Positions 3-31,266 are shown, counted from the stretch's first letter. The stretch: DNA of 54,035 nucleotides from Candidatus Adlerbacteria bacterium (GCA_903851045.1 CAINNF010000018.1:67925-121959), one strand, 5' to 3'. Translations and numbers: made by a program. The notes: generated from the letters alone by a model not told the origin.

Positions 3-695
3 CACACTGAGTTCGTCCTCATGAAAGACTGGTTCGACTATGAGATCGTCGGTAAGACGCTCGACGATGCGGTCGGCGAAGCGTTCGACAAGGTTGCACG
101 CCTGCTCGAACTCCCCTACCCTGGAGGTCCGCATATTTCGCGTATTGCGGACGAAGCACGTAAAAAAAGTGGCGCAGCTGGCGGAGGAAGTGGTATTTCG
201 CAGCGTCCCCTTGATGACCTGCAGCGGAGAAATACCACTTCCTCCGCCAGCTGCAACATAACGCTGCCGCGCCCAATGCTTAAAAGTAAAAACTGTGACA
301 TGTCGTTTTCGGGACTGAAGACCGCCGCACTGTACGCACTGCGCGGAAAGACGCTTTCGGACGACGAAAAGGCGGCCTTTGCGCGCGAGTTCGAAGATAC
401 GGTGGGAGACGTGTTCGTCGCCAAAACACGAAAGGCGCTGCTCGAAACAGGAGCGAGGACGTTCGTCATCGGCGGCGGCGTTGCCGCGAATCGGTACCTG
501 CGAGAACGGTTGCAAGCGCTACTGTTGGAAGAGTTCGACGATATAGAGTGCCGCCTACCGGATGTCTCCATTACGGGCGACAATGCGGTGATGATCGCCG
601 AAGCGGCGCTCGTCCATATGCTCAAGGAAGGTGTACCGACCGACTCGGGTGAAGATATCCGTGCAGTGGGCGGCCTCTCGCTAAGTAGCAAATAA
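3..695 (+). CDS. tsaD: tRNA N6-adenosine threonylcarbamoyltransferase TsaD, 5'-truncated by the window edge, with an in-frame palindromic insertion
   Basis: Frame is open to the window edge (HTEFVLMKDWFDYEIVG); motifs TLDDAVGEAFDKVARLL, PYPGGP, LPRPML, FSGLKTA, GGGVAANRYLR. Confidence 0.93.
   Translation, partial: HTEFVLMKDWFDYEIVGKTLDDAVGEAFDKVARLLELPYPGGPHISRIADEARKKSGAAGGGSGISQRPLDDLQRRNTTSSASCNITLPRPMLKSKNCDMSFSGLKTAALYALRGKTLSDDEKAAFAREFEDTVGDVFVAKTRKALLETGARTFVIGGGVAANRYLRERLQALLLEEFDDIECRLPDVSITGDNAVMIAEAALVHMLKEGVPTDSGEDIRAVGGLSLSSK
174..254. repeat. Quasi-palindromic element E1 (26-nt perfect arms 174-199/229-254, 29-nt core), in frame within tsaD
   Basis: gcagctggcggaggaagtggtatttc ... 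gaaataccacttcctccgccagctgc are exact reverse complements; 81 nt = 27 codons. Confidence 0.95.
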
Positions 696-712
696 TGTTG
701 TAAATTAGGCAT

Positions 713-2926
713 ATGCCAGAGAAATTTTTAAAACCCTATAGCCCTCAGGACGTCGAAGCGGGTATATATAAAAAATGGGAGGAGGGTGGATATTTTAATC
801 CAGACAACCTACCAGGCGACCGCCCCGAATCATTTTCGATAGTACTACCACCACCCAATGTCACTGGCACGCTCCACCTTGGTCATGCAGCGATGCTCGC
901 GGTCGAAGATATCATCGTCCGGTTCGAACGTATGCGCGGAAAGAAGACGTTGTGGCTCCCAGGGACCGACCACGCCGCCATCGCGACACAGTCGAAGGTT
1001 GAGAAAGAGATACAAAAAACCGAAGGCAAGAACCGTCATGACCTTGGACGTGAAGTGTTCCTCAAACGAGTCGAGGAGTTCGCCCAAGAAAGCCACGACA
1101 CCATAGTCAACCAGGTGCGCTGTATGGGAGCGTCGGTCGACTGGAGTCGCGAAGCATACACGCTCGACATTAAACGCCGTCACGCGGTTAACACCGCATT
1201 TAAACGCATGTACGATGCGGGTCTTATCTATCAAGGTGAACGTATCGTTAACTGGGACCCGAAGGGTCAGACGACCATCTCTGACGACGAGATCGTCTAT
1301 GTCGAAGAAAAGTCGAAATTCTACTATTTCAAATATGGCCCATTTACCATCGGCACCTCGCGCCCGGAGACCAAGTTCGGCGACAAATATGTGGTCATGC
1401 ACCCGGACGATACACGGTATGAGCTGTTCAAGCATGGTGACCAACTCGAGGTCGAGTGGATCAACGGCCCCATCACCGCGACCGTCATAAAGGATGCGGT
1501 CATCGACAAGGACTTCGGTACCGGCGTTATGACCATCACCCCATGGCACAGCGCCGTCGACTGGGAGATCGCACAACGACATGACCTTAACAAGGAGCAG
1601 GTCATCGACAAGTACGGCAAGATGCTCCCCATCGCAGGTGAGTTCGCCGGAATGAAGATAGCTGAGGCGCGTGAGAAGATCGTGGCTAAAATGGCCGAAA
1701 AGGGTCTTCTGGTCAAAGTCGAGGACAACTACGTTCACAACATAGCTACCGCAGAGCGCACCGGTGCCACCATCGAGCCTCAGATCATGAAGCAGTGGTT
1801 CGTCGCCGTGAACAAGGAGTTCATTATTCCCCACAGCAATATCCCTGGTATCGAGTCGGGTTCGACCACGACACTGAAAGAAGTGATGCGCCGCTCGGTC
1901 GACTCGGGTGCCACTAAGATAGTCCCCGACCGCTTCGAGCGCATCTACTACCACTGGATAGACAACTTGCGTGACTGGTGCATCAGCCGTCAGATCTGGT
2001 TCGGCCACCGTGTGCCGGTGTGGTACTGTACATATCCTGAAGGCGGCAAAAGCACACCAATGTGTGCTAATCCAATAATCAGTATTGAAAACGCCTCAGA
2101 ATGTCCATATTGCCACGGGACCGTAGAACAAGACCCCGACACCCTCGACACGTGGTTCTCCTCTGGATTGTGGACATTTTCGACGCTCGGCTGGCCGGAT
2201 GATACGCTCGACCTTAAAACATTCCATCCGACGGCACTCCTGGAAACCGGCTATGACATCCTCTTCTTCTGGGTGGCGCGTATGATACTCATGAGCGGCT
2301 TCCTCGTAGGAGATGTTCCATTCAAGAATGTCTATCTCCACGGCCTCGTACGCGACGAAAAAGGCCGCAAGATGAGCAAGTCGCTTGGTAATATCATCGA
2401 CCCACTCGATATGATTTCTAAATATGGCGCCGACGCGGTGCGTCTGTCACTCATCATCGGCGCAGCACCCGGTAACGACCTCAAATTGTCCGAGAATCGC
2501 ATTCGTGGCTATAAGAACTTCGCTAACAAAGTGTGGAATATCACCCGATTCGTACTCGAAAACACACAGGATGCGACCGACGATGTGCCGTTTACCGAGG
2601 GCGACGCTGCAATCCAACAAGAAGCGTGTGGGGCCTTCGATGCTGTCACAGCGAATATCGAAAAATATCGTCTCGATCTTGCCGCCGACCAGGTGTACCA
2701 GTTCATTTGGCACCGTTTCGCCGACGAGATTCTTGAAGAAAGTAAAACGATACTTAAAACAGGCACACCCGAGGAGGTAGCTTCACGAAAGAGGCTACTT
2801 ACCAACACTCTGAAGGATTCACTGAAGCTGCTACACCCGTTCATGCCGTTCGTCACCGAGGAGATCTGGAGTTCGCTGCCGAACACCGAAAACCTGTTGA
2901 TGATCGAGCCTTGGCCATCAAAATAG
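713..2926 (+). CDS. valS: Valyl-tRNA synthetase
   Basis: PPPNVTGTLHLGHA (HIGH region), GRKMSKSLGN (KMSKS), DTWFSSGLW. Confidence 0.96.
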   Translation: MPEKFLKPYSPQDVEAGIYKKWEEGGYFNPDNLPGDRPESFSIVLPPPNVTGTLHLGHAAMLAVEDIIVRFERMRGKKTLWLPGTDHAAIATQSKVEKEIQKTEGKNRHDLGREVFLKRVEEFAQESHDTIVNQVRCMGASVDWSREAYTLDIKRRHAVNTAFKRMYDAGLIYQGERIVNWDPKGQTTISDDEIVYVEEKSKFYYFKYGPFTIGTSRPETKFGDKYVVMHPDDTRYELFKHGDQLEVEWINGPITATVIKDAVIDKDFGTGVMTITPWHSAVDWEIAQRHDLNKEQVIDKYGKMLPIAGEFAGMKIAEAREKIVAKMAEKGLLVKVEDNYVHNIATAERTGATIEPQIMKQWFVAVNKEFIIPHSNIPGIESGSTTTLKEVMRRSVDSGATKIVPDRFERIYYHWIDNLRDWCISRQIWFGHRVPVWYCTYPEGGKSTPMCANPIISIENASECPYCHGTVEQDPDTLDTWFSSGLWTFSTLGWPDDTLDLKTFHPTALLETGYDILFFWVARMILMSGFLVGDVPFKNVYLHGLVRDEKGRKMSKSLGNIIDPLDMISKYGADAVRLSLIIGAAPGNDLKLSENRIRGYKNFANKVWNITRFVLENTQDATDDVPFTEGDAAIQQEACGAFDAVTANIEKYRLDLAADQVYQFIWHRFADEILEESKTILKTGTPEEVASRKRLLTNTLKDSLKLLHPFMPFVTEEIWSSLPNTENLLMIEPWPSK

Positions 2927-2941
2927 GGGTATACTGAGAAG

Positions 2942-3697
2942 GTGGATTTTTTGATCTTTCTTCCGGTAGGCCTTGTCGAGCACCCTATCCTTTCGCTTGT
3001 CTCCTTTCTCGGTGGCGTGATACCCGCGTGCATATGGCTTTGTTTTTGGCTTTTTGAGGACCGCTGCCAGCCCGAACCAAAACGCTTCATATTTTACGCC
3101 TTTGTCGCCGGAATGATCGCTATCGGACCGACCTTGGTCTTACAAGCGATCGCGCAACAATACCTTCCACCATATAGCCTTGGCCTGATCGGTATGTGGG
3201 CACTTACCGAGGAGATCATGATATTCCTCGCAGCCTACGTTGCCGCCCTACGCCTGTACGTGTTCGACGAGCCGATAGACGCTATCATCTACATGGTGAC
3301 CGCGGCGCTTGGCTTCTCGGCGCTTGAGAACGCGCTTTTTTTGTGGCCACAGATCGTCAATGGCGACCTGTTACGGATCGTCGCACTTGGTGAATCACGG
3401 TTCCTTGGAGCGACGCTCGTACACACGCTCTCTTCGTCGACCGTTGGTATCGCGCTGGCTATTTCGTTCAACAAACCGGCGAGCATGCGGAAACTCTATG
3501 CGATCTGCGGCATTATCCTCTCGACCATATTGCATACCACCTACAATTACTTTATTGTTAACATACCAGAAGGTGCTGGTGCTCATAGTACGCAAGGTGC
3601 TGAAGAAACGTTCTGGATCTTTGTGTGTGTCTGGTGTGGCATCATCGCAACACTGCTGGTTATCGAGCGACTCAAAACCCCCAAAGACTATTGTTAA
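2942..3697 (+). CDS. PrsW-like intramembrane metalloprotease
   Basis: Multi-TM; TEEIMIF and EPIDAIIYMVTAALGFSALENALF resemble PrsW-family motifs; GTG start. Confidence 0.8.
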   Translation: MDFLIFLPVGLVEHPILSLVSFLGGVIPACIWLCFWLFEDRCQPEPKRFIFYAFVAGMIAIGPTLVLQAIAQQYLPPYSLGLIGMWALTEEIMIFLAAYVAALRLYVFDEPIDAIIYMVTAALGFSALENALFLWPQIVNGDLLRIVALGESRFLGATLVHTLSSSTVGIALAISFNKPASMRKLYAICGIILSTILHTTYNYFIVNIPEGAGAHSTQGAEETFWIFVCVWCGIIATLLVIERLKTPKDYC

Positions 3698-3717
3698 TTA
3701 ACAAGTAATCATGACGT

Positions 3718-4248
3718 ATGGCACGAGATAAACGAACACTTTTTGAATGGCTAACCGGTGGTACGGGATCGGATGATTCTTTCTCGTTCGACGACCTCGA
3801 AAGCGGCGGCACTGGCTATGTGCCAGCCCAAAAGACCATAAAACCTGGTGCCGCCGTCGCGCCACCGGCCTCACGACGCGTACTACCCCAAGAAGAAGAG
3901 GAACCCGAGCGCGAAGAGGAGGGTGAGCTTGCGGTAGATGTGTACCAGACCCCGACACACCTCATCATCAAGGCGATGATCGCGGGGGTGCGACCGGAAG
4001 ATCTCGACGTCTCTATAACACGAGACATGGTGACATTGCGCGGTAAACGCGAACGGCATGTCGAAGGTACCGCCGGCGAATTCTTCTTTTCTGAGTTGTA
4101 TTGGGGAGCTTTTTCGCGAACGATAGTCCTCCCTCAGGAGATCGATATCGAAGGAGCCGACGCAGTTGAAAAGCATGGCCTACTTACCCTGCGACTGCCC
4201 AAGCTGGACAAGGGCCGCCAAGCGAAGCTCAAGATCAAGTCGAACTAA
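3718..4248 (+). CDS. Hsp20/alpha-crystallin family small heat-shock protein
   Basis: DVYQTPTHLIIKAMIAGVRPEDLDVSITRDMVTLRGKRE ... GLLTLRLPK. Confidence 0.88.
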   Translation: MARDKRTLFEWLTGGTGSDDSFSFDDLESGGTGYVPAQKTIKPGAAVAPPASRRVLPQEEEEPEREEEGELAVDVYQTPTHLIIKAMIAGVRPEDLDVSITRDMVTLRGKRERHVEGTAGEFFFSELYWGAFSRTIVLPQEIDIEGADAVEKHGLLTLRLPKLDKGRQAKLKIKSN

Positions 4249-4274
4249 CTTTTTACTCTAAGCGAAACAGAATG

Positions 4275-4347
4275 TGCCGAGAGCCGGGCTCGAACCGGCG
4301 ACCCCTTCCTCTTCAGGGAAATGCTCTACCAACTGAGCTATCTCGGC
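4275..4347 (-). tRNA. tRNA-Phe (GAA)
   Basis: Cloverleaf on the minus strand: gccgagatagctcagttggtagagcatttccctgaagaggaaggggtcgccggttcgagcccggctctcggca. Confidence 0.93.
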
Positions 4348-4438
4348 GAATCGCACACGACCAACCTCCCGTACGCTAGAAAATATAGCTTAAAAAAGCT
4401 TTTGTGTAAATGTCATACCGCGGAGCGCTTTTTACTCT

Positions 4439-4762
4439 TTATTTCACAAAGAAGGTGTGAAGCGTAAGTACTATAGACACCGCCACCGTGAGAAGTACAT
4501 ACGCGTACATGGCTGTTCTCAGAACGACCGATACGGGCATGGACCGACGCACAGCGGCGGTAAGGTCCACAAGCGCTCTCAATTGTCGCACCGAGAGCCA
4601 AAATAGGCACACGTGCAAAACGACATACAGCAGGAACACGGCAAGTACTGTCGCTGCGATACCTTCAAAACGAATACCTGGGAAGAAGACGACCCCGATC
4701 GACCACATAACGAAGACCAGAACCGCTATCACCTTTTCTCGCACGAGGAATTCTTTTTTCAT
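4439..4762 (-). CDS. Hypothetical small membrane protein
   Basis: 107 aa ORF with several hydrophobic helices. Confidence 0.6.
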   Translation of the reverse strand: MKKEFLVREKVIAVLVFVMWSIGVVFFPGIRFEGIAATVLAVFLLYVVLHVCLFWLSVRQLRALVDLTAAVRRSMPVSVVLRTAMYAYVLLTVAVSIVLTLHTFFVK

Positions 4763-4780
4763 GATACATTCATTCGTTTG

Positions 4781-5248
4781 TTAATGAGTGGAGTTGTTGG
4801 ATGCTCGAGGTGAGCCAAGGGGTGCGTGTGCAGTGGATGTATTGTTCCCTTTAGGCCAGTTGACCCAAAGGGTGAGCGATAACACCAGGATTACAGCTAC
4901 CACAAGAACGGCGTTCGCTTGGAACTCCGTGCGAACGATCTTTTTCCTGATCAGCCAGCCAGCAATACCGCTTCCCGAGGTAATCACAGGTGCCTCGCCG
5001 CGCCACTTTCGTTTTTTTGCTTCGACCTCCAACTCTTTCTTGATCCTGTCCTCTTCGGCCTCAGCACTCGGTGGCATATTTTGATCGGAGACTTGTGCGA
5101 CATTCTCGGGGTGCTCTACCGCCATAAACGCGTCGGACACATCCTGAGGTGCCCATCCTGAGGCCCGCAACTTCTCTTCAATATCTTGCTTAGAAAAATC
5201 AGCGGCAAGGTTTTGGCGAATATATTCGAGTAGTTGTGGTGCTGCCAT
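4781..5248 (-). CDS. Hypothetical protein, N-terminal helical domain plus one TM
   Basis: 155 aa; LLEYIRQNLAADFSKQDIEEKLRASGW then a TM segment near the C-terminus. Confidence 0.65.
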   Translation of the reverse strand: MAAPQLLEYIRQNLAADFSKQDIEEKLRASGWAPQDVSDAFMAVEHPENVAQVSDQNMPPSAEAEEDRIKKELEVEAKKRKWRGEAPVITSGSGIAGWLIRKKIVRTEFQANAVLVVAVILVLSLTLWVNWPKGNNTSTAHAPLGSPRASNNSTH

Positions 5249-5254
5249 AGATTA

Positions 5255-5566
5255 TTAGTGGGTCGTCGAGGTCGAGGATGTTGTATAGCTCTTGAACAGG
5301 TCTTGCAGCTGTGTACCGATGTTCTGCGACTGCTGGCCCGTCGATTGGACCTGCATATATAGGTCTTCTAGTTTGCCGACATACGGCTGGAGATAGTAAT
5401 AGTAGGTCGCACTAGACACTCCGATAATGACCATCCACCATACAAACTGGAAAAAACGCCCCCAGCGCTGCGCGCTGCGCATCCCCCGTACGATATGGTT
5501 GGTGTCCTCAGCGAGCGCGAGCGCCTGCTTGGCAAGCGCCTTGATCTCTTTAATATCCTCATCCAT
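5255..5566 (-). CDS. Hypothetical small membrane protein
   Basis: 103 aa, one TM (FFQFVWWMVIIGVSSATYYYYL), adjacent to the previous gene. Confidence 0.6.
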   Translation of the reverse strand: MDEDIKEIKALAKQALALAEDTNHIVRGMRSAQRWGRFFQFVWWMVIIGVSSATYYYYLQPYVGKLEDLYMQVQSTGQQSQNIGTQLQDLFKSYTTSSTSTTH

Positions 5567-5582
5567 AGCAACTATTTTACCA

Positions 5583-5654
5583 TGCCCCCGGCGGGAATCG
5601 AACCTACATCTACCCCTTAGGACGGGGCTGTTCTATCCATTGAACTACGGGGGC
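5583..5654 (-). tRNA. tRNA-Arg (CCT)
   Basis: Minus-strand cloverleaf gcccccgtagttcaatggatagaacagccccgtcctaaggggtagatgtaggttcgattcccgccgggggca. Confidence 0.92.
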
Positions 5655-5666
5655 CTCACGACTCGC

Positions 5667-5700
5667 AAAACCGCTCCACATTCGGCGTGGAGCGGTTTTA
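5667..5700. terminator. Intrinsic terminator hairpin
   Basis: aaaaccgctccacattcggcgtggagcggtttta inverted repeat flanked by A/T runs. Confidence 0.8.
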
Positions 5701-5725
5701 GTATGCGCTATTGCGGGGAAAATGG

Positions 5726-5968
5726 CTATGCCTCGAGACCTAGTTTCTCGGCGAACTTCTCGCGATCGAAGCCGACCATGACCGAACCGTCGACCACAAT
5801 GACCGGGACGCCGAGTTGTCCCGTCATCTGGATCATCTCATTGCGCCGCTGCGCGTCGACCGAGACGTCATAATTGGTAAAAGGGATGTTCTTCTCGGCA
5901 AGGAACTCTTTCGCTAACTGGCAAAAGTGGCAGGTCGGTGTCGAATAAATGGCTATGTGTTTGTCCAT
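5726..5968 (-). CDS. Glutaredoxin-like/NrdH-like thioredoxin-fold protein
   Basis: YSTPTCHFCQLAKEFL (CxxC), GVPVIVVDG. Confidence 0.88.
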   Translation of the reverse strand: MDKHIAIYSTPTCHFCQLAKEFLAEKNIPFTNYDVSVDAQRRNEMIQMTGQLGVPVIVVDGSVMVGFDREKFAEKLGLEA

Positions 5969-6073
5969 ACGATTACGATTTATATGTAGTTAATGTGCAT
6001 CCAGTATAACATACTTTACTTTGTACAGTGAATAGGGCCGCTCCAGTGGAGCAACCCATGGTACCATTGGCTC

Positions 6074-7438
6074 ATGGACGTACTTCAATGGTCGCGTCTC
6101 CAGTTCGGCGATACCGCCGCGTTTCATATCCTCTGGCCGATCATGTCCATCGGACTCGTGCTCTACATGTTCGTGATGGAGATCATGTGGCTCTTGACCA
6201 AACAGGAGCACTACTACCGCCAACTGCGCTTTTGGACCAAACCGTTCGTGCTTACCTTCGCCATAGGTACCGCCAGTGGACTACCGCTTGCCTTTCAGTT
6301 CGGCACGAACTGGTCACAATTCGCCCAAACCGCTGGCGACTTTCTCGGTAACATCCTCGGGTTCGAGACGACGATCGCCTTCGCACTCGAGTCGGCTTTT
6401 CTGGCGATATTGGTGTTCGGCTGGAAGAAAGTCCATCCGCTCGTCCACCTCTTCTCGACCGCTATGGTGCTCCTCGGAGCTTCTATTTCAGCCTTTTGGA
6501 TCATGGCGGCCAATTCGTGGATGCAGACGCCGCTCGGCGTGACCTTCTCTGACGGAAAACTGGTCGTGACCGATTATGCGAAGGCCATTTGTAACCCCGA
6601 CACGCTTGTGTCGTTCGCGCACATGTGGTTCGCCTGCGTCGAGTCGACCCTGTTCATGATGGTGGGGATCTCGGCGATCAAATTGCTTGGCTCAAGCCCC
6701 ACAGAGACGAAGGGGTTCTTTCTCTCGACCTTCAAGTTCTGCATCGGCATACTGGTCGTCGTCGCACCACTACAACTGGTCGTCGGAGACCTGAGCGGCC
6801 AAGTGGTCGGTCGCTATCAGCCGGAAAAACTAGCGGCTATCGAGCTTCAATGGCAGACGAACGCCTCTGGCACGGGCGCACCACTGCGTCTGGTCGCCAT
6901 CCCCAGCGATGCACAGCAGCGAAACTCGTTCGAGGTCGCCATACCCGGTGCTCTCAGCTTTATCACCACCCATGACCCGGTCGGCACCGTCCAAGGACTC
7001 GCCTCGTTCCCCGCCAACGACCGCCCCTCGACGGCTCAAGCCGCCGTTACCTTCTACCTGTTCAGACTCATGGTGCTGCTCGGCGTACTGATGGCAGCCC
7101 TCATGTTATGGGGGTGTATCTACTGGTACCGAGGCAAGCTCTCGGTCGCACACATAAGCAGACACCCCTGGTTCTTGTGGGCATGGATCGTCTCCATCCC
7201 CTTCGGCCTCATCGCGACCGAGTCCGGCTGGATGGTGCGCGAGATAGGCCGACAACCGTGGATCGTGTACCACATCATCCGTACCGCGGATGGCGTATCG
7301 ACCGGACTCTATTCCGCCGAGGTCGCCACAACGACGCTCGCTATCACACTCATGTACGTCGTCTTCTCGATCACCTTCGTCTATCTTGTGGCAAAGATGA
7401 TCGCGCGAGGGCCTGACCTTACTTCCCCACTCCCATGA
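6074..7438 (+). CDS. cydA: Cytochrome bd ubiquinol oxidase subunit I
   Basis: SRLQFGDTAAFHILWPIMSIGLVLYMFVMEIMW, FALESAFLAILVFGW, GRQPWIVYHIIRTADGVS. Confidence 0.95.
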   Translation: MDVLQWSRLQFGDTAAFHILWPIMSIGLVLYMFVMEIMWLLTKQEHYYRQLRFWTKPFVLTFAIGTASGLPLAFQFGTNWSQFAQTAGDFLGNILGFETTIAFALESAFLAILVFGWKKVHPLVHLFSTAMVLLGASISAFWIMAANSWMQTPLGVTFSDGKLVVTDYAKAICNPDTLVSFAHMWFACVESTLFMMVGISAIKLLGSSPTETKGFFLSTFKFCIGILVVVAPLQLVVGDLSGQVVGRYQPEKLAAIELQWQTNASGTGAPLRLVAIPSDAQQRNSFEVAIPGALSFITTHDPVGTVQGLASFPANDRPSTAQAAVTFYLFRLMVLLGVLMAALMLWGCIYWYRGKLSVAHISRHPWFLWAWIVSIPFGLIATESGWMVREIGRQPWIVYHIIRTADGVSTGLYSAEVATTTLAITLMYVVFSITFVYLVAKMIARGPDLTSPLP

Positions 7439-8430: not shown

Positions 8431-8434
8431 ACCT

Positions 8435-8508
8435 TGGTGCGGATAGGGAGAATCGAACTCCCGCCCGGTGCTTGGGAAGCACCTATTCTGCCACTAAACT
8501 ATATCCGC
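8435..8508 (-). tRNA. tRNA-Gly (CCC), CCA encoded
   Basis: Minus strand gcggatatagtttagtggcagaataggtgcttcccaagcaccgggcgggagttcgattctccctatccgcacca. Confidence 0.92.
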
Positions 8509-8599
8509 CTTCGTCTCGCTATCGCTCGGCTTCGGCGGACGCGGTCCGCGAGGTCGAGCGAGCATGCACACCGAAAACTCGTTCGCTAACGAAGACACT

Positions 8600-9552: not shown

Positions 9553-11478
9553 CTACTCACTCTTCACCATCTTCAAAAAGACGTCTTCGGGGATGTTGAC
9601 TCGCCCGCTCGCTTTCATTCTTGCTTTTCCTTTCTTTTGCTTCTCACGAAGTTTCATCTTGCGGGTAATGTCACCGCCGTACATGTGTTGGGTGACGTCT
9701 TTGGACATCGCCGAGAGCGTTCGGGACGAGAGTATGCGGCCGAGTGCTTGGCCTTGAATTTTGGTGGCGAACATCTGTCGCGGGAGGATGCCGTACAACT
9801 TCTCCACCGCCGCCTCGGCCTCCTCTTGGGCTCTATGCTTCGCTACGATACGCGAGAATGCAGGGACGAGGTCTTCGGCAACAAGCAGGTCGAGCCGCGC
9901 GACGTCGGCCAATCGAAGCTCCTGGAGCTGGTAGGATACCGAGCCATAGCCCGAGGAAACACTCTTTAATTTGTCGAAAAAGTTACGCATGAGTTCGCGC
10001 AGCGGCATCACCACCCTCACGATGACGCGACCCTCGGAGAACGTCTCGGTCGAATCGACCGCCGCCTCATGTTCGTAGAGCATCGGCATGAGGGAGCCAA
10101 GGTACTCCGTCGGGATGACGATCTGCGCGGTAACGTACGGCTCCCACACCTGGGCGATATCACCGAAGTCGGGAAATTGCATCGGTGAGTAGACGGTCTT
10201 TCGCTTGCCGTCCTTCGTCTCTATCTCGTACGTGATGGTCGGTGTCGTAATGACGAGGCCGATGTCGAACTCGCGGCGCAAACGCTCCGACACGATCTCC
10301 AGGTGGAGCATGCCAAGGAAACCACACCGATAGCCCCGCCCAAGCATGCCCGAGGACTCCTCTTCGTACGACAAAGAGGAGTCCGACAGCCGTAGTCGCG
10401 AAAGCGCTTGGCGCAGTGTCACGAACTCGTCTTGGCTTTCGGGATAGATACTCGCCCACACGACCGGCCGCGGCTCCGCATACCCCGGCAGCGGCGGCGT
10501 CTTTGACGCGAACGCGCGCACCGTGTCGCCCACGCGCGCCAACCCCGGTTCTTTGATGCCGGTCACTATGTAGCCGATGGAACCGGCAAAGAGGCCTTCG
10601 GAAAGCGGTGTCGGTGTCGGGGCGAAGGAGCCGACCTCGAGCGCGTTGAATTTTCTCCCCGTTGCGGAGAACTCCAACGTATCCCCTTTCTTCGCCGCAC
10701 CCTCGAACATGCGCACGTACACGATGACGCCCTGATGGTCGGAGTATTGAAAGTCAAAAATGAGCGCACGCGGATCGCTTTTGTGCCGACTAGCAGCAAC
10801 GGATTTTCCTCCACTACCGATGGATGCCGGAAAACGCTTCACAGGAAAATAGTCTGGCCGGCCGCCAGCCTGAACGGGAGATCCAAGGACTTTTTCCTGT
10901 GAAGCATTTTCCGGCACCTCTTCCGCGTTCCTCGGTGGCGGCACGCGCTGAATGACCGCTTGCAAAAGCTCTTCGACCCCCGCACCAGTGCGACCCGAAC
11001 ACAGCAAGACCTCGTCGGGCGAGATATCGAGCAGTGTCGCGACCTGAAGCACCACATCCTCCACATCCGCCAGCGGCGAATCGATCTTGGAGACCGCTGG
11101 CACTATCACGAGCCCAAGGTCGCGTGCGCTCCGAAGCGTCGTGAGCGTCTGGGCTTGTACACCCTGCGTGGCGTCCACGAGCAGTACCGCACCCTCTACC
11201 GCGGTCAGCGCACGCGAGACCTCGTAGGAGAAGTCGATGTGCCCTGGAGTGTCGATGAGGTGAAGCAGGTACTCGTCACCCCCGAGCTTGTAGCGCATCC
11301 GTACCGGCTGCATCTTGATGGTGATGCCACGCTCACGCTCCAACTCCATAGAGTCAAGCACCTGGTCGCGCATCTTGCGCTTCTCGATAGTGCCGGTCAG
11401 CTCCAAAAAGCGGTCAGCCAGCGTGGACTTGCCGTGGTCGATGTGGGCGATGATGCTGAAATTGCGTATATGCTGCAC
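9553..11478 (-). CDS. lepA: Elongation factor 4 (LepA) with in-frame palindromic insertion
   Basis: [43 protein letters not shown]-terminal [15 protein letters not shown]. Confidence 0.97.
10825..10916. repeat. Quasi-palindromic element E2 (25-nt arms, 24/25 paired; 42-nt core), in frame within lepA
   Basis: tgccggaaaacgcttcacaggaaaa (10825-10849) vs ttttcctgtgaagcattttccggca (10892-10916). Confidence 0.95.
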
Positions 11479-22622: not shown

Positions 22623-22789
22623 GACGAATTCCTCCCTGTACCAATACCTAGTGACGTTTATACATTACATATAACTATCATGTCAAGGCGTTCTTTGCGG
22701 CTGGTCGAATTTGACTGTCATACGCAGTGCTATATAGTCAACCTGGAGTAGTCTAAAGGTCCAAGACCCGTACAAAGGGAGACTGAAAT

Positions 22790-23149: not shown

Positions 23150-23355
23150 CATTGCGACACATCGCACACACTGCAGGACCCGAAAGGTGTCCTGCAGTTT
23201 TTTTATATACACACGAAGGGTCGGCAGGCGTACTCTGAGGCAACATGCAAAAAAGGCGCACCGTAGTGGCGCGCCTTGTTCCGAGCATAATTCGCACATT
23301 TACAATATATATTAAAATATGTATGCTAAATTTCAGATTCACAAGGAAGACTGGC

Positions 23356-23610
23356 ATGCATACTCCCCGTTTTGCATGGATACGCAAGATTTTGGCCGTG
23401 TTCGAGGACCCCATAAACACTCTAACACTGGCCCTGTTTGGGTGCTTGTTGTTCTTTGGATCGTTCCTGTTCGCCGGAGAGGTTACGGAATCGCTCACGT
23501 GGCAACAGTATGGTGCAGTGATCGCCTTCCTCATCGGCTCCATTGTCATAAGCATCAGCCTACTCCTCTTCGCGGTGTCGTTCTTCCGCTCCAACAAGCA
23601 TCGCAAATAG
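23356..23610 (+). CDS. Hypothetical small membrane protein
   Basis: 2 TM segments; downstream GC hairpin with T run. Confidence 0.55.
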   Translation: MHTPRFAWIRKILAVFEDPINTLTLALFGCLLFFGSFLFAGEVTESLTWQQYGAVIAFLIGSIVISISLLLFAVSFFRSNKHRK

Positions 23611-23902
23611 CATCACTTCGCCCAAGGCGCAGGTCCAACCCCTGCGCCTTTTCCTTTGTGTGGTATCCTATCAGCACTTTGCAGGAGGCACCGGACGGCC
23701 AGGCACCATCGCTGGATGGATACGGCGCGGGTTAGCACGCATCTGCACGTTGACCCAACGTATATGCGGCAAGGGTGACCGTTCGGAAAGACGGACAGAC
23801 TCGCTACCCATCCCCCTCGCCGCGGATGGGTTTATTTTTGGAAATAGTAAAAGGCGGCCTCCGTGCATGGAGACCGCCCTTGGCGCCGTAGCGCTCTGTT
23901 TC

Positions 23903-24340
23903 CTACGCTCGCACCAACCGATCAAACAGCTCTTGGTCGATGCCGAGCATTTCGGCAGTCAGCGGCCCCGCCCTGACATCATCTCGCAAAAACCCGATGT
24001 CGAGACTAGAACCTCCCGCTTGTATATACTTGATCCATCGCTTCGCGCTCGCCACGAGTCCGAGGATACGAAGCCGCTCAAGCTCGGCATCATCGGTGCC
24101 GATATCGCGGAGCGTGAGGCCCGCCTTCGCCAGATCCTCCTTCATATACCTGAGGAAGGACCTGTTGTCATCGTAGCCATTTCTCATGTGACGCAACCAG
24201 CGCAACGCACTCTTCTTAAGTGCGAGGACTCTCAACTCCTCGAGGCGCGCCTCCGCGAAATTAACGCGCCAAAAGAAACCCCGAGAGCCGAAATACAGCG
24301 CTGCGAGCCCGACGAACGCGAACAAGAGAGTGTGGTCCAT
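23903..24340 (-). CDS. Hypothetical protein with N-terminal TM
   Basis: 145 aa, internally repetitive LRILGL/LRVLAL-type helices; ggcggcctcc/tggagaccgcc terminator downstream. Confidence 0.6.
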   Translation of the reverse strand: MDHTLLFAFVGLAALYFGSRGFFWRVNFAEARLEELRVLALKKSALRWLRHMRNGYDDNRSFLRYMKEDLAKAGLTLRDIGTDDAELERLRILGLVASAKRWIKYIQAGGSSLDIGFLRDDVRAGPLTAEMLGIDQELFDRLVRA

Positions 24341-24466
24341 TACACCTTTCCCCTACACAACTGGAAAAGATTATATACCATATATTGCAGTATGTCAAAT
24401 ACTGCTGCATGGTGAGTTCTCACTCTGCATACAAGAATCAACCCATATACACAACACCCTAACACC

Positions 24467-24494
24467 TTGACACTGTCTTGATTGTATGTACTAT
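24467..24494 (+). promoter_or_regulatory. Sigma70-type promoter (TTGACA-16-TACTAT)
   Basis: ttgaca 24467-24472, tactat 24489-24494, upstream of the 24522 ORF. Confidence 0.5.
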
Positions 24495-24521
24495 ACACCA
24501 AGTTCAGTTCAGGAGACGCCT

Positions 24522-24791
24522 ATGAATCCGCGAGACATACCTCTCCCGAAACTGCGTCGCGGTCCACGGGGAGAACCGATAGGGTTGCTCGCTGGAGAGC
24601 GAGTGCTCGAAATTCTGTCATCAGAGGACTTGCCGATCGTTGATCAGGAGATGCTTCTTCGAGAGGCACGTTCTCATCTGGTGCAAGTACGAGAAGAAGC
24701 CGAGTTGACCGACGAACTTCTGACCACGGAGGTCCTTGAGCGGATAGCGAAACTGGAGAAAGATATCCAGGACCGGGCCAACTCGATATAA
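24522..24791 (+). CDS. Hypothetical protein
   Basis: Promoter-like sequence and an aggag-like Shine-Dalgarno upstream. Confidence 0.5.
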   Translation: MNPRDIPLPKLRRGPRGEPIGLLAGERVLEILSSEDLPIVDQEMLLREARSHLVQVREEAELTDELLTTEVLERIAKLEKDIQDRANSI

Positions 24792-24854
24792 AAACCAGGG
24801 TCGTGAGTCCAGCAGCAGCGTAGTACATCATACGGTTCACAAAGGATACAATGC

Positions 24855-25184
24855 ATGTCGCGTTCGTTTAGCTATGGAGGAGACTTGAAGGAGCTACGTA
24901 TCGTCGGCACCGGGGTCGAGATAGCATTGCTCGCCCTGCGAGTCGGCTACTTTAAGGCTGGCGCGGGGGTGCTTATCGAAGGACCACCTGACTGGCTTCT
25001 GGCTGTGGAGGGCGCTTCGTCCGCGGGATTTGCCGCCGAGACAATCACCCTGCCGCCAGCTCCAACCGGAGATGAGGAAGTCTCGCGCACACCGATCAAG
25101 GTAACTCTGTTTCTTCCGCCGAAGAATCTCCGCATCGTCGTCGATATCCCAGTTCGGAGTACTGCCACGAATTTCATGTCATAA
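24855..25184 (+). CDS. Hypothetical protein
   Basis: 109 aa; followed by a strong terminator (ccccacac...gtgtgtgggg + T6). Confidence 0.5.
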   Translation: MSRSFSYGGDLKELRIVGTGVEIALLALRVGYFKAGAGVLIEGPPDWLLAVEGASSAGFAAETITLPPAPTGDEEVSRTPIKVTLFLPPKNLRIVVDIPVRSTATNFMS

Positions 25185-25428
25185 TCCGTACGCAGCACGG
25201 ACACCGCATCACTCCCCACACGCAAACACACATTTGTTTGTGTGTGGGGATTTTTTACACAAGGCACGACGCTAATACCACACCACGACCATTTCACGAA
25301 CATCGTGACTGTCCCCATGACCCTTTGTTTCAACGCAACGACCTTACCGTATCTCCCAAGAGTTACACAAAAAAATACCGCCCCATGGTGTGGGGCGGTG
25401 TGGCTAGGTACGACCACTCGAGCGACGT

Positions 25429-26001
25429 TCAAAGGCGAGTGATATGGTCGACTGCCTCCGCCCACGTGTGGACTCTGATGATATTGTCACCCGCAACATC
25501 GCCATTCCATGGAGCGTCGAACAGCAGTACTGGAATCCCGACGGCGGCAACCGCATGTGCATGGTGGGGTGCATCTTCAAGAAGGATGGTTACGCCAAGC
25601 TCCTGACACGCTCTTGCCTTTGACCCGTGCCCACGACCGTTATAGCCGACGAAGTGAACACCCGCGAACACGTCGGGAAAGTGCCGCCCCACCAACGCGC
25701 TGGTTACCTCGGCGAGATGTGCATGACGTGCGGTAATGATGTGCAGTTCACAGAAGTTCGCAAGATGCATGACCGCCTCTTGAGCCCCGAACACTGGGAC
25801 TAGGTTCGCATGGTGCGATGAGTAGTACCACGCCTCGAGACGTTCGTGCGCCTCGTCGGGAGTACATCCCCACAAGCGACTGAGGTCGAACGACTGTACG
25901 TCCTCCATCCAGTGTGCGGTACCGAACTGTTCGTTGTGGAACCCAAGCAGCGACGGGTTGGTATCGACAAGTACGTCGTCGAAATCTATACCGACTCTCA
26001 T
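25429..26001 (-). CDS. 5'(3')-deoxyribonucleotidase-like HAD hydrolase (NT5C-like)
   Basis: MRVGIDFDDVLVDTN, LHIITARHAH, ILLEDAPHHA. Confidence 0.8.
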   Translation of the reverse strand: MRVGIDFDDVLVDTNPSLLGFHNEQFGTAHWMEDVQSFDLSRLWGCTPDEAHERLEAWYYSSHHANLVPVFGAQEAVMHLANFCELHIITARHAHLAEVTSALVGRHFPDVFAGVHFVGYNGRGHGSKARACQELGVTILLEDAPHHAHAVAAVGIPVLLFDAPWNGDVAGDNIIRVHTWAEAVDHITRL

Positions 26002-26178
26002 AAAGAACATCCCTCTGTTTGTTTCTACCAAAATCCTACCACAGAGGAAGAGAGACTGAATGGATACGGTTCGGGTTAGCACGTTTTTTGGAGATGAGCA
26101 GCAAAAAAGGACGGCACCGTAGCGATATTGTACCAAAAGAAAACCCCTTTGATGCTATCTCAGGGGTCGTGAGCGTGT

Positions 26179-26490
26179 TTAGTCTTTGCGTTTCAGATGG
26201 GCAGCGGCTACCCGCCAAGCTTGTTGGACGTCCCATGCATGGTTGCCGAATGTTCCCATCCGGATTCGGTACCACACGAGCAGGGTATCCCACCAGGCGG
26301 ACACTAGCCCACCAATGACGATCTCATATGCTACGTACGGTGGCTTGCCCAACCACGCGAGCACCACCAGAGCTACCACCGAGACAACAAACGTCATAAC
26401 AGTGAGAGGTACCGAGACTACGAGCCGGAACCTCATCACTTTACCTTGCAGCTTGGTGGCCGCGTTACTAAAAGGCGGGAATGGTGACAT
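26179..26490 (-). CDS. Hypothetical membrane protein
   Basis: Two hydrophobic segments; upstream -35 TTGACT / -10 TATAAT on the minus strand (26518-26545). Confidence 0.55.
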   Translation of the reverse strand: MSPFPPFSNAATKLQGKVMRFRLVVSVPLTVMTFVVSVVALVVLAWLGKPPYVAYEIVIGGLVSAWWDTLLVWYRIRMGTFGNHAWDVQQAWRVAAAHLKRKD

Positions 26491-26549
26491 TTTTGTTTTC
26501 CCAATGTACCTTGAGGCATTATAATACAACACAAGTAAAAGTCAATGTG

Positions 26550-26620
26550 CTGGGAGACATGGACTCGAACCATGATTCACGGCTTCAAAGGCCGCTGTCC
26601 TACCATTAGACGATCTCCCA
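26550..26620 (-). tRNA. tRNA-Gln (TTG)
   Basis: Minus strand tgggagatcgtctaatggtaggacagcggcctttgaagccgtgaatcatggttcgagtccatgtctccca. Confidence 0.9.
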
Positions 26621-26797
26621 ATGAAAAGCTCACGACCCGTGGGGCGCGATGGTTGGACCGTGGTGGATCCTAGCTTTACCTGTCCATAATACTTGTTTTT
26701 GGTATTTTTTCTATCGGCGTGACCACGAGACGGTTTATTGGAGGATGTTTGACATATTATTTGTTTATGTTAATCTGTTGCCAGGCTGGCCGCGATC

Positions 26798-27283
26798 ATG
26801 CGGCAGCAACGAGGGATTTTTCCAATGCTTTCGACATTGGCTCGGTTTGCTTTGTGTTTCGGTTTACTTCTGGGAGGTGTGCTCCCCGCGCGAGCGGGAG
26901 GGGTTGTCGTGGTCCCCATTCCGGAGGTGTGCTTCGAACATCTCTGCGCCAAGGTGCCGACCGAATGGGTGGCGTCGTTGCAGAATTCGGTGTTCTCCGC
27001 CACGGACGGCAAGACGACCTTCACGATCCAGATCACCAACGCGGTCGACCTGACCGACATCGACACCAGCACCGAACCTGAGTTCAATATCAGCGGCAAC
27101 CCCTTCTGGGCCGTGGCGGGAAATGACACACACAGCGCCACCTACCAGGGCAAGGTGCGTTACTACAAGGACGAGGAGGAATATTCAGTGGTCGTGATCA
27201 CCGTCAACGGTGACCTCGAGACATGGCGCGACCGCCTGATCGAGTGGGTTGTTGCGCGCAACTACGACGACCTGCGCCAGTAA
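26798..27283 (+). CDS. Secreted protein with signal peptide
   Basis: LARFALCFGLLLGGVLPARAGG signal-like N-terminus; strong terminator at 27300-27326. Confidence 0.65.
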   Translation: MRQQRGIFPMLSTLARFALCFGLLLGGVLPARAGGVVVVPIPEVCFEHLCAKVPTEWVASLQNSVFSATDGKTTFTIQITNAVDLTDIDTSTEPEFNISGNPFWAVAGNDTHSATYQGKVRYYKDEEEYSVVVITVNGDLETWRDRLIEWVVARNYDDLRQ

Positions 27284-27424
27284 AAAAAGGAGGGTACGTG
27301 GGCGCGGCAGTTACTGCCGCGCCCTTTTCATATTCTGTATCAGTACTGCGACCGTCTTTGTCCGCTGGAGTTGACTCATTTTGTATACCAAGTAGAGTCA
27401 CCGCAGTACGCACATGAGGAAGGT

Positions 27425-27628
27425 ATGACCGACGTTCCGTATAGCCACGGGGTCCGCTTGGGCCAGTGCCCGACGTGTCTGGCGTTCTTGGTGGTTCGGC
27501 CCGACCACTACGGCACCTGGATGATCCCCTTCCACCCACCCGCGCCGACAGAGTCCCGCGAAGGACTCCGACACTGCCAAGGGTCTGGGGAACCGGAGCG
27601 ATTCTCCTCCGACGGCCGGTACCTTTGA
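27425..27628 (+). CDS. Small hypothetical protein (possible zinc-binding)
   Basis: QCPTCLAFLVV ... RHCQGSG. Confidence 0.4.
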   Translation: MTDVPYSHGVRLGQCPTCLAFLVVRPDHYGTWMIPFHPPAPTESREGLRHCQGSGEPERFSSDGRYL

Positions 27629-27713
27629 TGTCTCGAGGACTTGCTTGTTTCGCACCATCCGCCGCCCACCATGGGCGGCGTTTTTCTGTAGCCTGCGACC
27701 GAAGTTTGCCGAC

Positions 27714-28151
27714 TTACGACAGTGTCGCGACGGCGTTGTCTTCGGATTGTGGCTGGCCGCAGAAGGCGCAGCGGCTAGCGGCAAGCGGGATCTCGCTGAG
27801 GCACTCGGGGCACTTTTTACTCGTCGGGTCCGCCGGAGTCTCGCGTCCCTTCATGCGCTCGGTGAAGGTGTTCATCGGGAGCACGACGAAGAAGTAGACC
27901 ACGGCCGCGATGATAAGGAAGGAGACGAGCGAGTTGAGAAAGTCGCCGATAAGGAACTTGCTGCCGTTGATGGTGAAGACGATATTGGACAAGTCGGACG
28001 TGTTGATGATAGCACCCACCAGCGGCGTGATGAGGTCCTTCACGAACGAGCTGACGATACCGGTAAACGCGGCTCCGACCGCAAGACCAACGGCAAGGTC
28101 GACGACGTTGCCACGGAGGATGAATTTTTTGAATCCGTTCATAACTTCCAT
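27714..28151 (-). CDS. mscL: Large-conductance mechanosensitive channel with C-terminal zinc ribbon
   Basis: FKKFILRGNVVDLAVGLAVGAAFTGIVSSFVKDLITPLVG; C-terminal KCPECLSEIPLAASRCAFCGQP. Confidence 0.95.
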   Translation of the reverse strand: MEVMNGFKKFILRGNVVDLAVGLAVGAAFTGIVSSFVKDLITPLVGAIINTSDLSNIVFTINGSKFLIGDFLNSLVSFLIIAAVVYFFVVLPMNTFTERMKGRETPADPTSKKCPECLSEIPLAASRCAFCGQPQSEDNAVATLS

Positions 28152-28172
28152 AGAGAGAACACTATACCACCA

Positions 28173-29240
28173 TTATCCCGTTGTGTACACACGGTAGAGC
28201 GCGAGCTCCAATGGGAGTGCCGGGAGCGGGGCGCGGTTCGTCTCCAAAAGCGCCGTGATCAGTTCGGCCAACAGTTGCGAATTTATGGCGGCTCCCTCCT
28301 TACCAGCAAGCCGCGTGAGCGCCGCGAGTTCAGTGACACTGAACTGCTCGCTCAACTCTTTTTTCATCTCCGGAGCGAAGCGAAGCAGCAGCACCGCGCG
28401 CACCTTGGTGAGCGCGAGCAGCACGAACACCTTCGCCTCGACACCGCTCTGTGTCGCCTGGTGAAAGGCGCCAAGCGCGGTAGCGATATCCTTTTGTGCC
28501 AGAGACTCTAGGAAGGTGTTCACGACCGCGCCGGACGGCGCACCGACGACCACACCGACCTCGGCTTCGGTCAACTTGGCATCACGTGAGACGGTCAAGA
28601 CTTTTTGTAAGATACCGAGCGTATCACGAAAGGACCCATCCCCCATCAGCGCGATGAGTTCTGCACCTGCGGGTTCGATGGTGACCTTCTCTTTTTTCGC
28701 GACGTCGATGATGAGGCTCTTGAGGATGTCGTGTGACGGCTTTTTGAAGGTAAAGGTCTGGCAGCGCGAGATGATGGTCTCCGGCACGCGGTCGAGCTCG
28801 GTGGTGGCGAGCACGAAGACGACGTGCGCGGGCGGCTCCTCCAAAGTCTTGAGTAGTGCCTGCCACGCCTGTGGGGTCAGTGCGTGCGCCTCGTCGATGA
28901 TATAAAATTTGTACTTGGACTCGAACGGGAGCGTGGCGACGCCATCGCGCAGTTCGCGGATCTCGTCGATGCCACGGTTGCTCGCCGCATCCATCTCATA
29001 GACGTCGTTGTCGCTCGTCCCCAGCGCCCGCGCGAGAATACGCGCGGTCGAGGTCTTGCCAGTCCCGCGCCCGCCTGCGAAAAGGTAGGCGTGCGCTATT
29101 CTTTCGTTCTCGACCGCGGCCCGCAGCACCGAGGTGATATGCTCCTGCCCACGCACCTCGTCGAAGATGCCGGGGCGATACTTCCGATACAAAGAGAGAT
29201 TGTGCCGCTCTAGGTCGGGCGTGGTCGTCTGTTTCATCAC
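28173..29240 (-). CDS. dnaX: DNA polymerase III subunit gamma/tau (short)
   Basis: YRKYRPGIFDEVRGQEHI, FAGGRGTGKTSTARILA, IIDEAHALTPQAWQALLKTLEEPP. Confidence 0.95.
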   Translation of the reverse strand: MMKQTTTPDLERHNLSLYRKYRPGIFDEVRGQEHITSVLRAAVENERIAHAYLFAGGRGTGKTSTARILARALGTSDNDVYEMDAASNRGIDEIRELRDGVATLPFESKYKFYIIDEAHALTPQAWQALLKTLEEPPAHVVFVLATTELDRVPETIISRCQTFTFKKPSHDILKSLIIDVAKKEKVTIEPAGAELIALMGDGSFRDTLGILQKVLTVSRDAKLTEAEVGVVVGAPSGAVVNTFLESLAQKDIATALGAFHQATQSGVEAKVFVLLALTKVRAVLLLRFAPEMKKELSEQFSVTELAALTRLAGKEGAAINSQLLAELITALLETNRAPLPALPLELALYRVYTTG

Positions 29241-29312
29241 TCAACAGTATACAACTCTTATACGAAAAATGCCCCGCCTATAACGGAGCATGTTTCTCGT
29301 TTCGTGTCGTGC

Positions 29313-29711
29313 TTATTTTGAAGCCGGCTTCTTCGCAGGAGCCTTCTTCACCGCCTTCTTGGCGCCCTTGGGCGTCACTGCGGCGCTGATGTGCGCCCAC
29401 GCAGCCCTCAGGTCCTTACCGAGCTGCGCGGTCTCTTCGGCGGTCACGCCAGAAACTGCCGAATACTTCGCGACCACCTTGTCGACGATAGCCTGGTAGC
29501 TCGCCTTGTCGATGGTCTTCGCCTTCTCGACCGCTTCGAGCGCTTCTGCACGCGCCTTGAGCAAATAACTCTTCGCGAGCTTGCGATGCTTGCTCGAGTG
29601 CTTCGCACCATACAACCAAAATGCCCCTGCCGCGCCGGCTGCCAATGCTGCCACTCCGAGTGCCGCGCCCGCTACTGCACCTGTTCCGTTTCCGTTCGAA
29701 TTGTTTGCCAT
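29313..29711 (-). CDS. Membrane-anchored protein with histone H1-like Lys/Ala/Pro tail
   Basis: Gly/Ala TM near the N-terminus; C-terminal TPKGAKKAVKKAPAKKPASK. Confidence 0.6.
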   Translation of the reverse strand: MANNSNGNGTGAVAGAALGVAALAAGAAGAFWLYGAKHSSKHRKLAKSYLLKARAEALEAVEKAKTIDKASYQAIVDKVVAKYSAVSGVTAEETAQLGKDLRAAWAHISAAVTPKGAKKAVKKAPAKKPASK

Positions 29712-29744
29712 ACGTAAAGATTACTACTAAATAATACCCTCCTA

Positions 29745-30080
29745 TTATACAGACTCTTCGGATTTCGTCTCGTTTTTGCGTCGCTTTCGTGGGGATGAGC
29801 GCCGTTTTTGCTTGGTCGCGCCCGCTCCCGCGAAGAACCCTCCGAGCGCGGCACCGAGAAAGCCGGTGATCTTCTCTGCGTACCCTTTCGCCTCGCCACG
29901 CACGTACGCGATATCGCTTTCGATGGTCTCGCTTGCCGTACGCACCTTCTGGGCGACCCGACGCACCTCACGTAAGATCGCGATGATGTACCATAGTACA
30001 ACGACGAGCATCAGGGTCACCACAAGCACCGCGACGGACGTAATAAAAAAGAAGATGTTAGCGTGGAGTATATCGTTCAT
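29745..30080 (-). CDS. Hypothetical single-TM protein
   Basis: FFITSVAVLVVTLMLVVVLWYIIAIL plus basic tail. Confidence 0.6.
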   Translation of the reverse strand: MNDILHANIFFFITSVAVLVVTLMLVVVLWYIIAILREVRRVAQKVRTASETIESDIAYVRGEAKGYAEKITGFLGAALGGFFAGAGATKQKRRSSPRKRRKNETKSEESV

Positions 30081-30083
30081 ATA

Positions 30084-31160
30084 CTACCCAGTATACGATA
30101 CGGCGAGAAAGTCGTTGATGATCTTCTCCACCTCCTGTGCATTAGTCGTCTCCATCAACCTCATGCGAAGCTCCTTCGCGCCTGGGAATCCTTCGACGTA
30201 GGCCTTGAAGTGCTTTTTCATGATAGCGAAACTTTTGATGTCACCGAGCAGCTCTTCGTACAATGTAGTGTGCTCGACAGCAACAAGAAGTCGTGCAACA
30301 ACTTCGTCCGAGAGGGCGGCAGTATTTCCTCCACAAAAGTCCTCGGGCCGCCTCAACGCCCAGAGCGGCGTTGTAGGCTTCCAGACTTTTGCTCCAGAAA
30401 CACTGCCGCCCTCCCCCGCGAACAACCACGGCGTGCCGAAGATGGCGCGACCTATCATCACCCCGTCAGCACCGGACGCTGCCGCCTTGGTGCGTGCATC
30501 ATCCATATCCACCACATCGCCATTGCCGACGATGAGTGTCGCGCTTCCCATCTGGTCTCTGATCTCCACGGCGCGCTTCACGCGCTCCCAACGTGCGGGT
30601 ACCAGCGACATTTCCTTGCGCGTTCGCGCATGGAGAATGATCGCCGCCGGTTCGGCCTTCAGCAGGATCGGCAGCCACTCTTCCAAGATGTCTTTGTTGT
30701 ATCCCAGCCGCGTCTTCACCGACACAGGGAGACCCTTGCCGCCGCGCTTCGCCGCTTCGATGAGTTCTACCGCGCGCGCAGGGTTGAGTATCAACTTTGA
30801 TCCCGCACCCTGACCCTCGACCGACTTGTCGGGACAACCCATGTTGATGTCGATACCGTCAAAACCACGCTCATGCGCGAGCGCAGCCGCCTTCTCCATA
30901 TACTCTGGCGTCGCCGTGAAGAACTGTACGACGATTGGACGCTCCGCGTCGGTAAAGATCATGTCGCGCAGCAACACCTCTTGGTTGCCACGAAAGAGCC
31001 CATCCGCCGAGACGAACTCGGTGTACATGACGTCTGGTTTCCCATACTTCGCGATGATACGACGAAAGGCGGCATCGGTGACGTTCGCCATCGGTGCCAA
31101 CACGAAGAAGGGCTTTTGCAGCTTCGCCCAAAAATTCTCGTTCTTTCCTGACATACTCAC
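30084..31160 (-). CDS. tRNA-dihydrouridine synthase with in-frame palindromic insertion
   Basis: FVLAPMANVTDAAFR, DINMGCPD, LPVSVKTRLGY, IVGNGDV, GVMIGRAIFGTPWLF. Confidence 0.94.
   Translation of the reverse strand: MSMSGKNENFWAKLQKPFFVLAPMANVTDAAFRRIIAKYGKPDVMYTEFVSADGLFRGNQEVLLRDMIFTDAERPIVVQFFTATPEYMEKAAALAHERGFDGIDINMGCPDKSVEGQGAGSKLILNPARAVELIEAAKRGGKGLPVSVKTRLGYNKDILEEWLPILLKAEPAAIILHARTRKEMSLVPARWERVKRAVEIRDQMGSATLIVGNGDVVDMDDARTKAAASGADGVMIGRAIFGTPWLFAGEGGSVSGAKVWKPTTPLWALRRPEDFCGGNTAALSDEVVARLLVAVEHTTLYEELLGDIKSFAIMKKHFKAYVEGFPGAKELRMRLMETTNAQEVEKIINDFLAVSYTG
30312..30413. repeat. Quasi-palindromic element E3 (30-nt arms, 24/30 paired, 42-nt core with inner stem), in frame within dus
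   Basis: gagggcggcagtatttcctccacaaaagtc (30312-30341) vs gacttttgctccagaaacactgccgccctc (30384-30413); 102 nt = 34 codons. Confidence 0.92.
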
Positions 31161-31190
31161 TACCCTACCCTTATTTTTATCACTCGCCTA

Positions 31191-31266
31191 GGGAGAGGTG
31201 CGCAGGTGTGCTTTGGTAGGGGTGCTGTTTATCTCCCCGGACAAAGTACACCTGCGCACCTCTCCC
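31191..31266. repeat. Quasi-palindromic element E4 (24-nt arms, 23/24 paired, 28-nt core), intergenic
   Basis: gggagaggtgcgcaggtgtgcttt vs aaagtacacctgcgcacctctccc. Confidence 0.93.

Follow-up and report, generated by a model that had tools for sequence, protein, structure and literature searches.

The window analysed here is a 54,035-nt stretch of a Candidatus Adlerbacteria genome (GCA_903851045.1, CAINNF010000018.1:67925-121959; C18:67925-121959 of the host genome, G000). It contains four long hairpins: E1 (174-254, plus strand) in frame in tsaD, E2 (10825-10916, minus strand) in frame in lepA, E3 (30312-30413, plus strand) in frame in dusB, and E4 (31191-31266, plus strand), which is intergenic. 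Each consists of two complementary arms around a core. The reading that we favour, with a probability of about 0.6, is that such elements are mobile hairpin cores, each of which builds its own stem from the target sequence at insertion. The wider proposal, that this is a new kind of mobile DNA in which the hairpin tip alone is transmitted and the stem is made by factor-driven backward copying of the target, is more tentative, and we would place it a little short of an even chance.

Hairpin elements and their core families

A scan for imperfect hairpins over practically the whole of the host genome (1.25 Mb, 54% GC, 25 contigs; Patescibacteria) gave 45 hairpins with a score of at least 14 and a loop of 15-80 nt, against 1, 0 and 0 in three second-order Markov shuffles of the same genome. 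These counts exclude a chance origin, and the four hairpins of the window, which had first been picked out in a sequence-only reading, are borne out at their positions far beyond chance. That reading would have been abandoned had no further copies turned up; about 37 elements were counted in the host genome, in at least five core families. Of these, 23 lie within a single open frame with a conserved protein aligning on either side, in genes that include tsaD (two elements), argS (three), uvrB (three), lepA, dusB and recG; the others are intergenic or close to gene ends. The host genome also exceeds in size all 34 sampled relatives of its genus (about 0.5-0.9 Mb).

The loops of the hairpins group into repeat families of near-identical sequence, with cores of about 27-70 nt. 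The family A core, present in E2 and E3, has the form AAARGTCCTCGG-NYCNCC-(inner stem-loop)-GGCCAGACYATTT. The family B core (E1) is GCAGCGTCCCC...GACCTGCAGCGGA and the family C core (E4) is GGGGTGCTGTTTATCTCCCCGG; families D and E have the cores GCAGCGTCAACAACGGGCCCAGCGGA and AGTCCTTAGCCCCACTTTTTATAGTCGC..., and a sixth, F, with the core CGCTCCGGGCCGCTAGGCCAAGTC, was seen in relatives. The sequence-only reading was right that E2 and E3 have their core ends in common (AAAAGTCCTYGG...CCAGACT, oriented one way with respect to the host gene in E2 and the other way in E3), but it had placed all four hairpins in one family, and the GTCC start offered as the uniting feature is too short to join E1 and E4 with E2 and E3. 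Its alignment of the E1, E2 and E3 peptides finds no support either: among coding copies, the core is translated in several phases and from both strands, which leaves no common peptide. The several cores, mixed phases and use of both strands together rule out one family with a common peptide. What survives of the idea of palindromic insertions in essential genes is that they are dispersed, multi-copy and in frame; what does not is their unity, there being several families, and the notion of a palindrome that is simply carried along.

The inner stem-loop of core A tends to occur in genome-specific versions, the folds of 70 distinct inner sequences are more stable than those of shuffled controls (mean z -2.0), and the base pair adjoining the conserved GTC/GAC covaries from A-U to G-C. 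Core A is thus itself a hairpin, in which the ends are conserved and the tip can be exchanged. At tsaD site 1 of the relative G021 (L244), a 20-nt palindrome, CCTGCCTGCCGGCAGGCAGG, is nested in the family A core and is not present in its relative G006; a palindrome similar to CCTGCCTGCCGGCAGGCAGG occurs in dusB of G011.

Arms and cores within copies

The arms are mostly 12-28 nt long outside the core, pair near-perfectly within a copy and differ in sequence among copies; clear arms (score of at least 9) are present in 48 of 77 core A copies. Three identical 65-nt cores in one metagenome-assembled genome (MAG; L297, L302 and L305) have perfect arms that are unrelated to one another, and the arms of two identical 57-nt cores in the host genome are also unrelated. 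Because unrelated arms surround identical cores, the arm differences are not the product of slow drift. Among same-genome pairs with near-identical cores, the inner arms are 48% identical, compared with 37% for different-genome pairs, and the sequence further out is 31% compared with 28% identical, near background. For the most part, the arms do not travel with the element, and the cores are shared and recently copied. Terminal inverted repeats common to the copies, a feature of miniature inverted-repeat transposable elements, are lacking, as the outer arms are not shared. As to target duplication, raised earlier as a check on mobility, no direct duplication was noticed at the uvrB and dusB junctions read, no systematic scan having been made; what is seen in its place is an inverted duplicate of one flank.

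These observations bear on an alternative in which the elements are palindromic transposable elements like those of Rickettsia. The whole hairpin would be inserted and its arms would diverge fast while being kept complementary, either because one arm is corrected against the other (quasipalindrome template switching) or because the hairpin is selected for. Identical or near-identical cores with unrelated arms in one genome leave no time for such divergence.

Empty sites and the origin of the arms

Orthologues of five host genes (lepA, argS, uvrB, tsaD and dusB) were gathered over the genus. Tolerant loops hold elements, of differing identity, in some genomes and lack them in others; with many sites empty in relatives, the segments did not prove to be ancestral non-palindromic loops, the other outcome that had been named as fatal to the idea of insertion. 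The cleanest case is uvrB site 1, where the empty interval measures 57 nt in 26 of 30 genomes. In G011 and G020, core B is present and the interval is longer by 45 and 42 nt, respectively; a core with one arm predicts 48 and 44 nt, and a core with two arms 65 and 59 nt. In these two genomes the left arms consist of the conserved AEK / SEKAS codons and the right arms are inverted copies of them. The site is empty in G017, a close relative of G020 (95% LepA identity).

Host sequence is also found in arms elsewhere. The conserved RLSVLAEH of DusB is encoded by the right arm in G008, and the invariant VPPPR of LepA by the left arm in G015; the right arm in lepA of G021 agrees with the sequence of the unoccupied site in G006, its relative, and the helix of the empty site runs on into the left arm in argS of both G000 and G023. 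The extra length of argS in G000 over its close relatives equals the core (67 nt) plus one arm (23 nt) less 6 nt, these 6 nt being GGAGTT, the end of the copied arm, which resembles GGAGTA of the empty target. Often, then, one arm is ancestral gene sequence and the other is its inverted copy.

Two tests were applied to 42 elements at eight sites. Extra length fell within 3 nt of the core plus one arm for 11 of the 42 (2.8 expected; none of 5000 permutations gave as high a number, p<0.001), and within 3 nt of the core plus two arms for 2 (3.0 expected). An arm-swap test, which asks whether an arm fits the protein of the empty orthologue better than do arms from other elements, gave 13 of 42 at p<=0.05, with 2.1 expected; many of the non-significant cases are loops with several insertion rounds. 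The arm-swap test is limited to sites with empty orthologues, and a version using base shuffling mixed inserts with natural hairpins of conserved genes. The sites were picked because the host genome carries elements there, after some cases had been seen, and all qualifying elements were used. For core A, inspection by eye gave no sign that core orientation fixes the side on which the ancestral arm lies.

Both the fit of the extra length to a core with one arm and the conserved host codons within arms speak against insertion of whole hairpins. Several points weigh against target copying, however, and some of them are what whole-hairpin insertion would lead one to expect. E1-E3 are themselves non-significant in the arm-swap test, lying in loops with a more complex history, and the target-copy model therefore rests mainly on relatives. 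DNA identity between orthologues reaches no more than 77-87%, making the comparison one of species rather than strains. At recG and at tsaD site 1, elements at the same site in several species have arms that differ and yet pair in most of them, with core orientation also varying; complementarity must therefore be kept or renewed after insertion. Some rewriting of arms or selection after insertion must exist, and this could explain part of the pattern. Two G011 elements have 15 of 17 arm bases in common. The 15 nt adjoining core A show a weak positional pattern, RAAANTYCYYYY, which we read as a target preference, since similar sequence lies on conserved host codons in argS of G023 and uvrB of G011, although the inner arm may instead be partly element-borne. 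Finally, no carrier factor was found among the reverse transcriptases and Y1 transposases examined in the genus genomes.

The shared-site elements with their different but pairing arms, the inner-arm pattern and the arm sequence common to the two G011 elements thus fit insertion of whole hairpins. So do palindromes at uvrB site 2 in G015 and G042 (L226 and L241; AAGGACTCTCCTT... and AAGTCAGACTTACTGG...), the length of which fits the insertion of both arms, although these are probably a different, fixed-arm kind of element. With the identical cores, insert lengths and host codons set against it, we regard whole-hairpin insertion as an unlikely account of the elements in general. A perfect 18-nt hairpin at C2:185111-185184 of G006 leaves protein length unchanged, and in the homologous segment of G000 complementarity is only partial; it is a possible case of arm-to-arm templated correction without insertion.

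A model for insertion and the search for a carrier

Under the target-copying reading, the transmitted unit would be the core, consisting of conserved ends and a freely varying inner stem-loop. At insertion, the core would be joined to the target, and 15-30 nt of the host DNA next to it would be copied backwards on its other side, so that each copy would acquire a new near-perfect stem extending the core's own short one. This could be achieved by fold-back synthesis: a free 3' end at the target would receive the core, the core's other end would then fold back and be extended along the strand to which the core had been joined, and the extended end would re-enter the target via microhomology. The same product would also result if a core-capped hairpin end were opened in the manner of P-nucleotide formation. 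The constancy of the core ends and the pattern at the targets both point to a dedicated factor, which we infer to act in trans and to recognise these ends together with the weak pattern RAAANTYCYYYY. Copies in genes would survive only when in frame and open, leading to their build-up in tolerant loops, and after insertion the arms appear to stay, or to be re-made, complementary.

Precedents exist for part of this scheme. P nucleotides in V(D)J joining, and snap-back template switching, place a palindromic copy of a flank at a junction through hairpin opening or snap-back synthesis. The copying of a flank as a palindrome is thus a common feature; those processes, however, add no conserved core, whereas here a conserved core centres the new palindrome.

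Reverse transcriptase is not supported as a general carrier, there being none in the host genome or in several other element-rich genomes. Y1_Tnp genes are present in 26 of the 35 genus genomes, including that of the host, and were not found in five carriers of core A (G003, G013, G014, G018 and G048); Y1 transposase shows no clean correlation with the elements.

Template switching might also produce the elements with no dedicated factor. The cores would then be hairpins copied by chance switching and snap-back replication, and the neutral or slightly harmful inserts would persist because small populations with reduced genomes are unable to remove them. Snap-back is favoured by hairpins, the GGAGTT of argS may be microhomology at re-entry, and the elements are tracked by neither reverse transcriptase nor Y1 transposase. 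Chance switching should, however, bring donor flanks along and give varying ends, whereas the core ends are invariant across genera, defined units are passed on without donor arms, and the insertion sites have a pattern in common. We consider this account more unlikely still than the insertion of whole hairpins. The last alternative, that the hairpins are not mobile but serve as regulatory or structured RNAs, or else are artefacts from assembling palindromic DNA, has very little probability: long hairpins can act as RNA processing or termination signals and inverted repeats can arise from amplification chimeras, but no Rfam 15 family scores above its gathering threshold for the elements (weak matches are to generic hairpins, such as microRNA models), conserved proteins are interrupted in frame at unrelated positions, and the same families recur in MAGs of many independent projects, with some sites common to several species.

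Distribution

The genus and the order were surveyed with a covariance model built on core A, a scan of relatives that the sequence-only reading had called for. Matches were obtained in 29 of 35 genomes of the genus, the host genome having the highest copy number among those sampled, and, across the order, in genomes representing 11 of the 179 genera sampled. A pattern scan for core A in the GTDB genome collection gave 58 loci. All named records are Patescibacteria (Adlerbacteria, Nomurabacteria, Kaiserbacteria and other Paceibacterota/Patescibacteria MAGs), with none outside this phylum; a few records bear no phylum name. Core A was found neither in IMG/VR by pattern scan nor in phage records by blastn, and a viral vehicle was discarded for this reason. 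The open-access literature searched contains no description of elements of this sort in Patescibacteria.

Comparison with known elements

Rickettsia palindromic elements (RPE) have been described as about 100-150 bp long, with a conserved encoded peptide (PMC10969869, PMC4316617). The elements described here resemble them in being short palindromes, of several families per genome, that lie in frame in coding genes as well as between genes, leave open reading frames undisrupted and inhabit reduced genomes. Unlike RPE, they are not conserved over their whole length: only the 27-70 nt core is conserved, the arms are new in each copy, no peptide is conserved, and the hosts are Patescibacteria. The relation is one of resemblance, judged from descriptions of RPE.

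Repetitive extragenic palindromic (REP) and REPIN elements are mobilised by REP-associated tyrosine (RAYT; Y1) transposases, have a conserved palindrome and are extragenic (PMC3116915, PMC3733652). They too are small dispersed bacterial hairpins, and Y1_Tnp genes occur in most genomes of the genus. Here, however, the loop is conserved and the palindrome variable, most copies are genic, and some host genomes have no detected Y1 transposase. REP-like perfect palindromes with the conserved stems ACGAAGGTCAGTCCTTCG / AACGYAGTCAGACTRCGTT do occur, at many sites in G006 and in G000 at C19:90661-90720 and C24:3147-3188; one of these copies has a Y1_Tnp gene (C19:90948) at a distance of about 230 nt.

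In the repetitive hairpin elements (RHE) of sponge mitochondria, the stems are conserved and the loops variable (PMC2800124). Leaving aside that those are organellar, conservation is reversed in the present elements, in which cores are kept and stems vary. Mitochondrial hairpin elements are otherwise similar, as tiny gene-less hairpin repeats that spread in small genomes, some of them into rRNA genes. To our knowledge they do not copy their target, and we know of no report of direct target duplication for the double-hairpin elements of Allomyces. The small dispersed repeats (SDR) of the cyanobacterium Nostoc are described as 21-27 nt long and are not known to have target-derived arms; like the present elements, they move as units of some tens of nucleotides that have a secondary structure in common, and no carrier is known for them.

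If the target-copying reading is correct, these elements would add a second, independent instance to the known protein-coding palindromes, and one from a phylum with minimal genomes. Their insertion chemistry would be inverted target copying around a mobile core, of which we know no description. Insertion of this kind would explain many lineage-specific loops in the housekeeping proteins of Patescibacteria and would call for caution against reading such loops as adaptive. Because empty sites exist, the birth of protein-coding palindromes, for example those of Rickettsia, would become directly testable.

The hairpins of the window and neighbouring features

The arms of E1 (174-199 and 229-254) pair at 26 of 26 positions around a family B core at 200-228, of which there are more copies elsewhere in the host genome. 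E1 lies in the 3' part of tsaD (21-695, plus strand), the start of this gene being upstream of the window. A second tsaD element, of family A, is located in the 5' part of the gene just upstream of the window (site 1, C18:67553-67645), and the same site is filled in five relatives (G006, G016, G021, G046 and G049). The arms of E2 (10825-10849 and 10892-10916) pair at 24 of 25 positions, and the element comes after the VPPP motif of lepA, the gene for elongation factor 4 (9553-11478, minus strand). Solved homologues of LepA/EF4 and TsaD have no segment equivalent to the inserts.

E3 has outer arms at about 30312-30328 and 30397-30413 and a mismatched inner arm; its core A match, at 30339-30386 on the plus strand, is antisense to the dusB-like tRNA dihydrouridine synthase gene (30084-31160, minus strand). 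E4, with arms at 31191-31215 and 31242-31266, has dusB on one side and an ftsQ-like gene on the other.

Two further features of the window are a pair of 28-nt direct repeats, 89% identical, at 23712-23739 and 26056-26083 (CTGRATGGATACGG...CGGGTTAGCACG), and a strong Rfam match to LOOT RNA (RF03000) at 44955-45075 on the plus strand, with a score of 80.7 bits.

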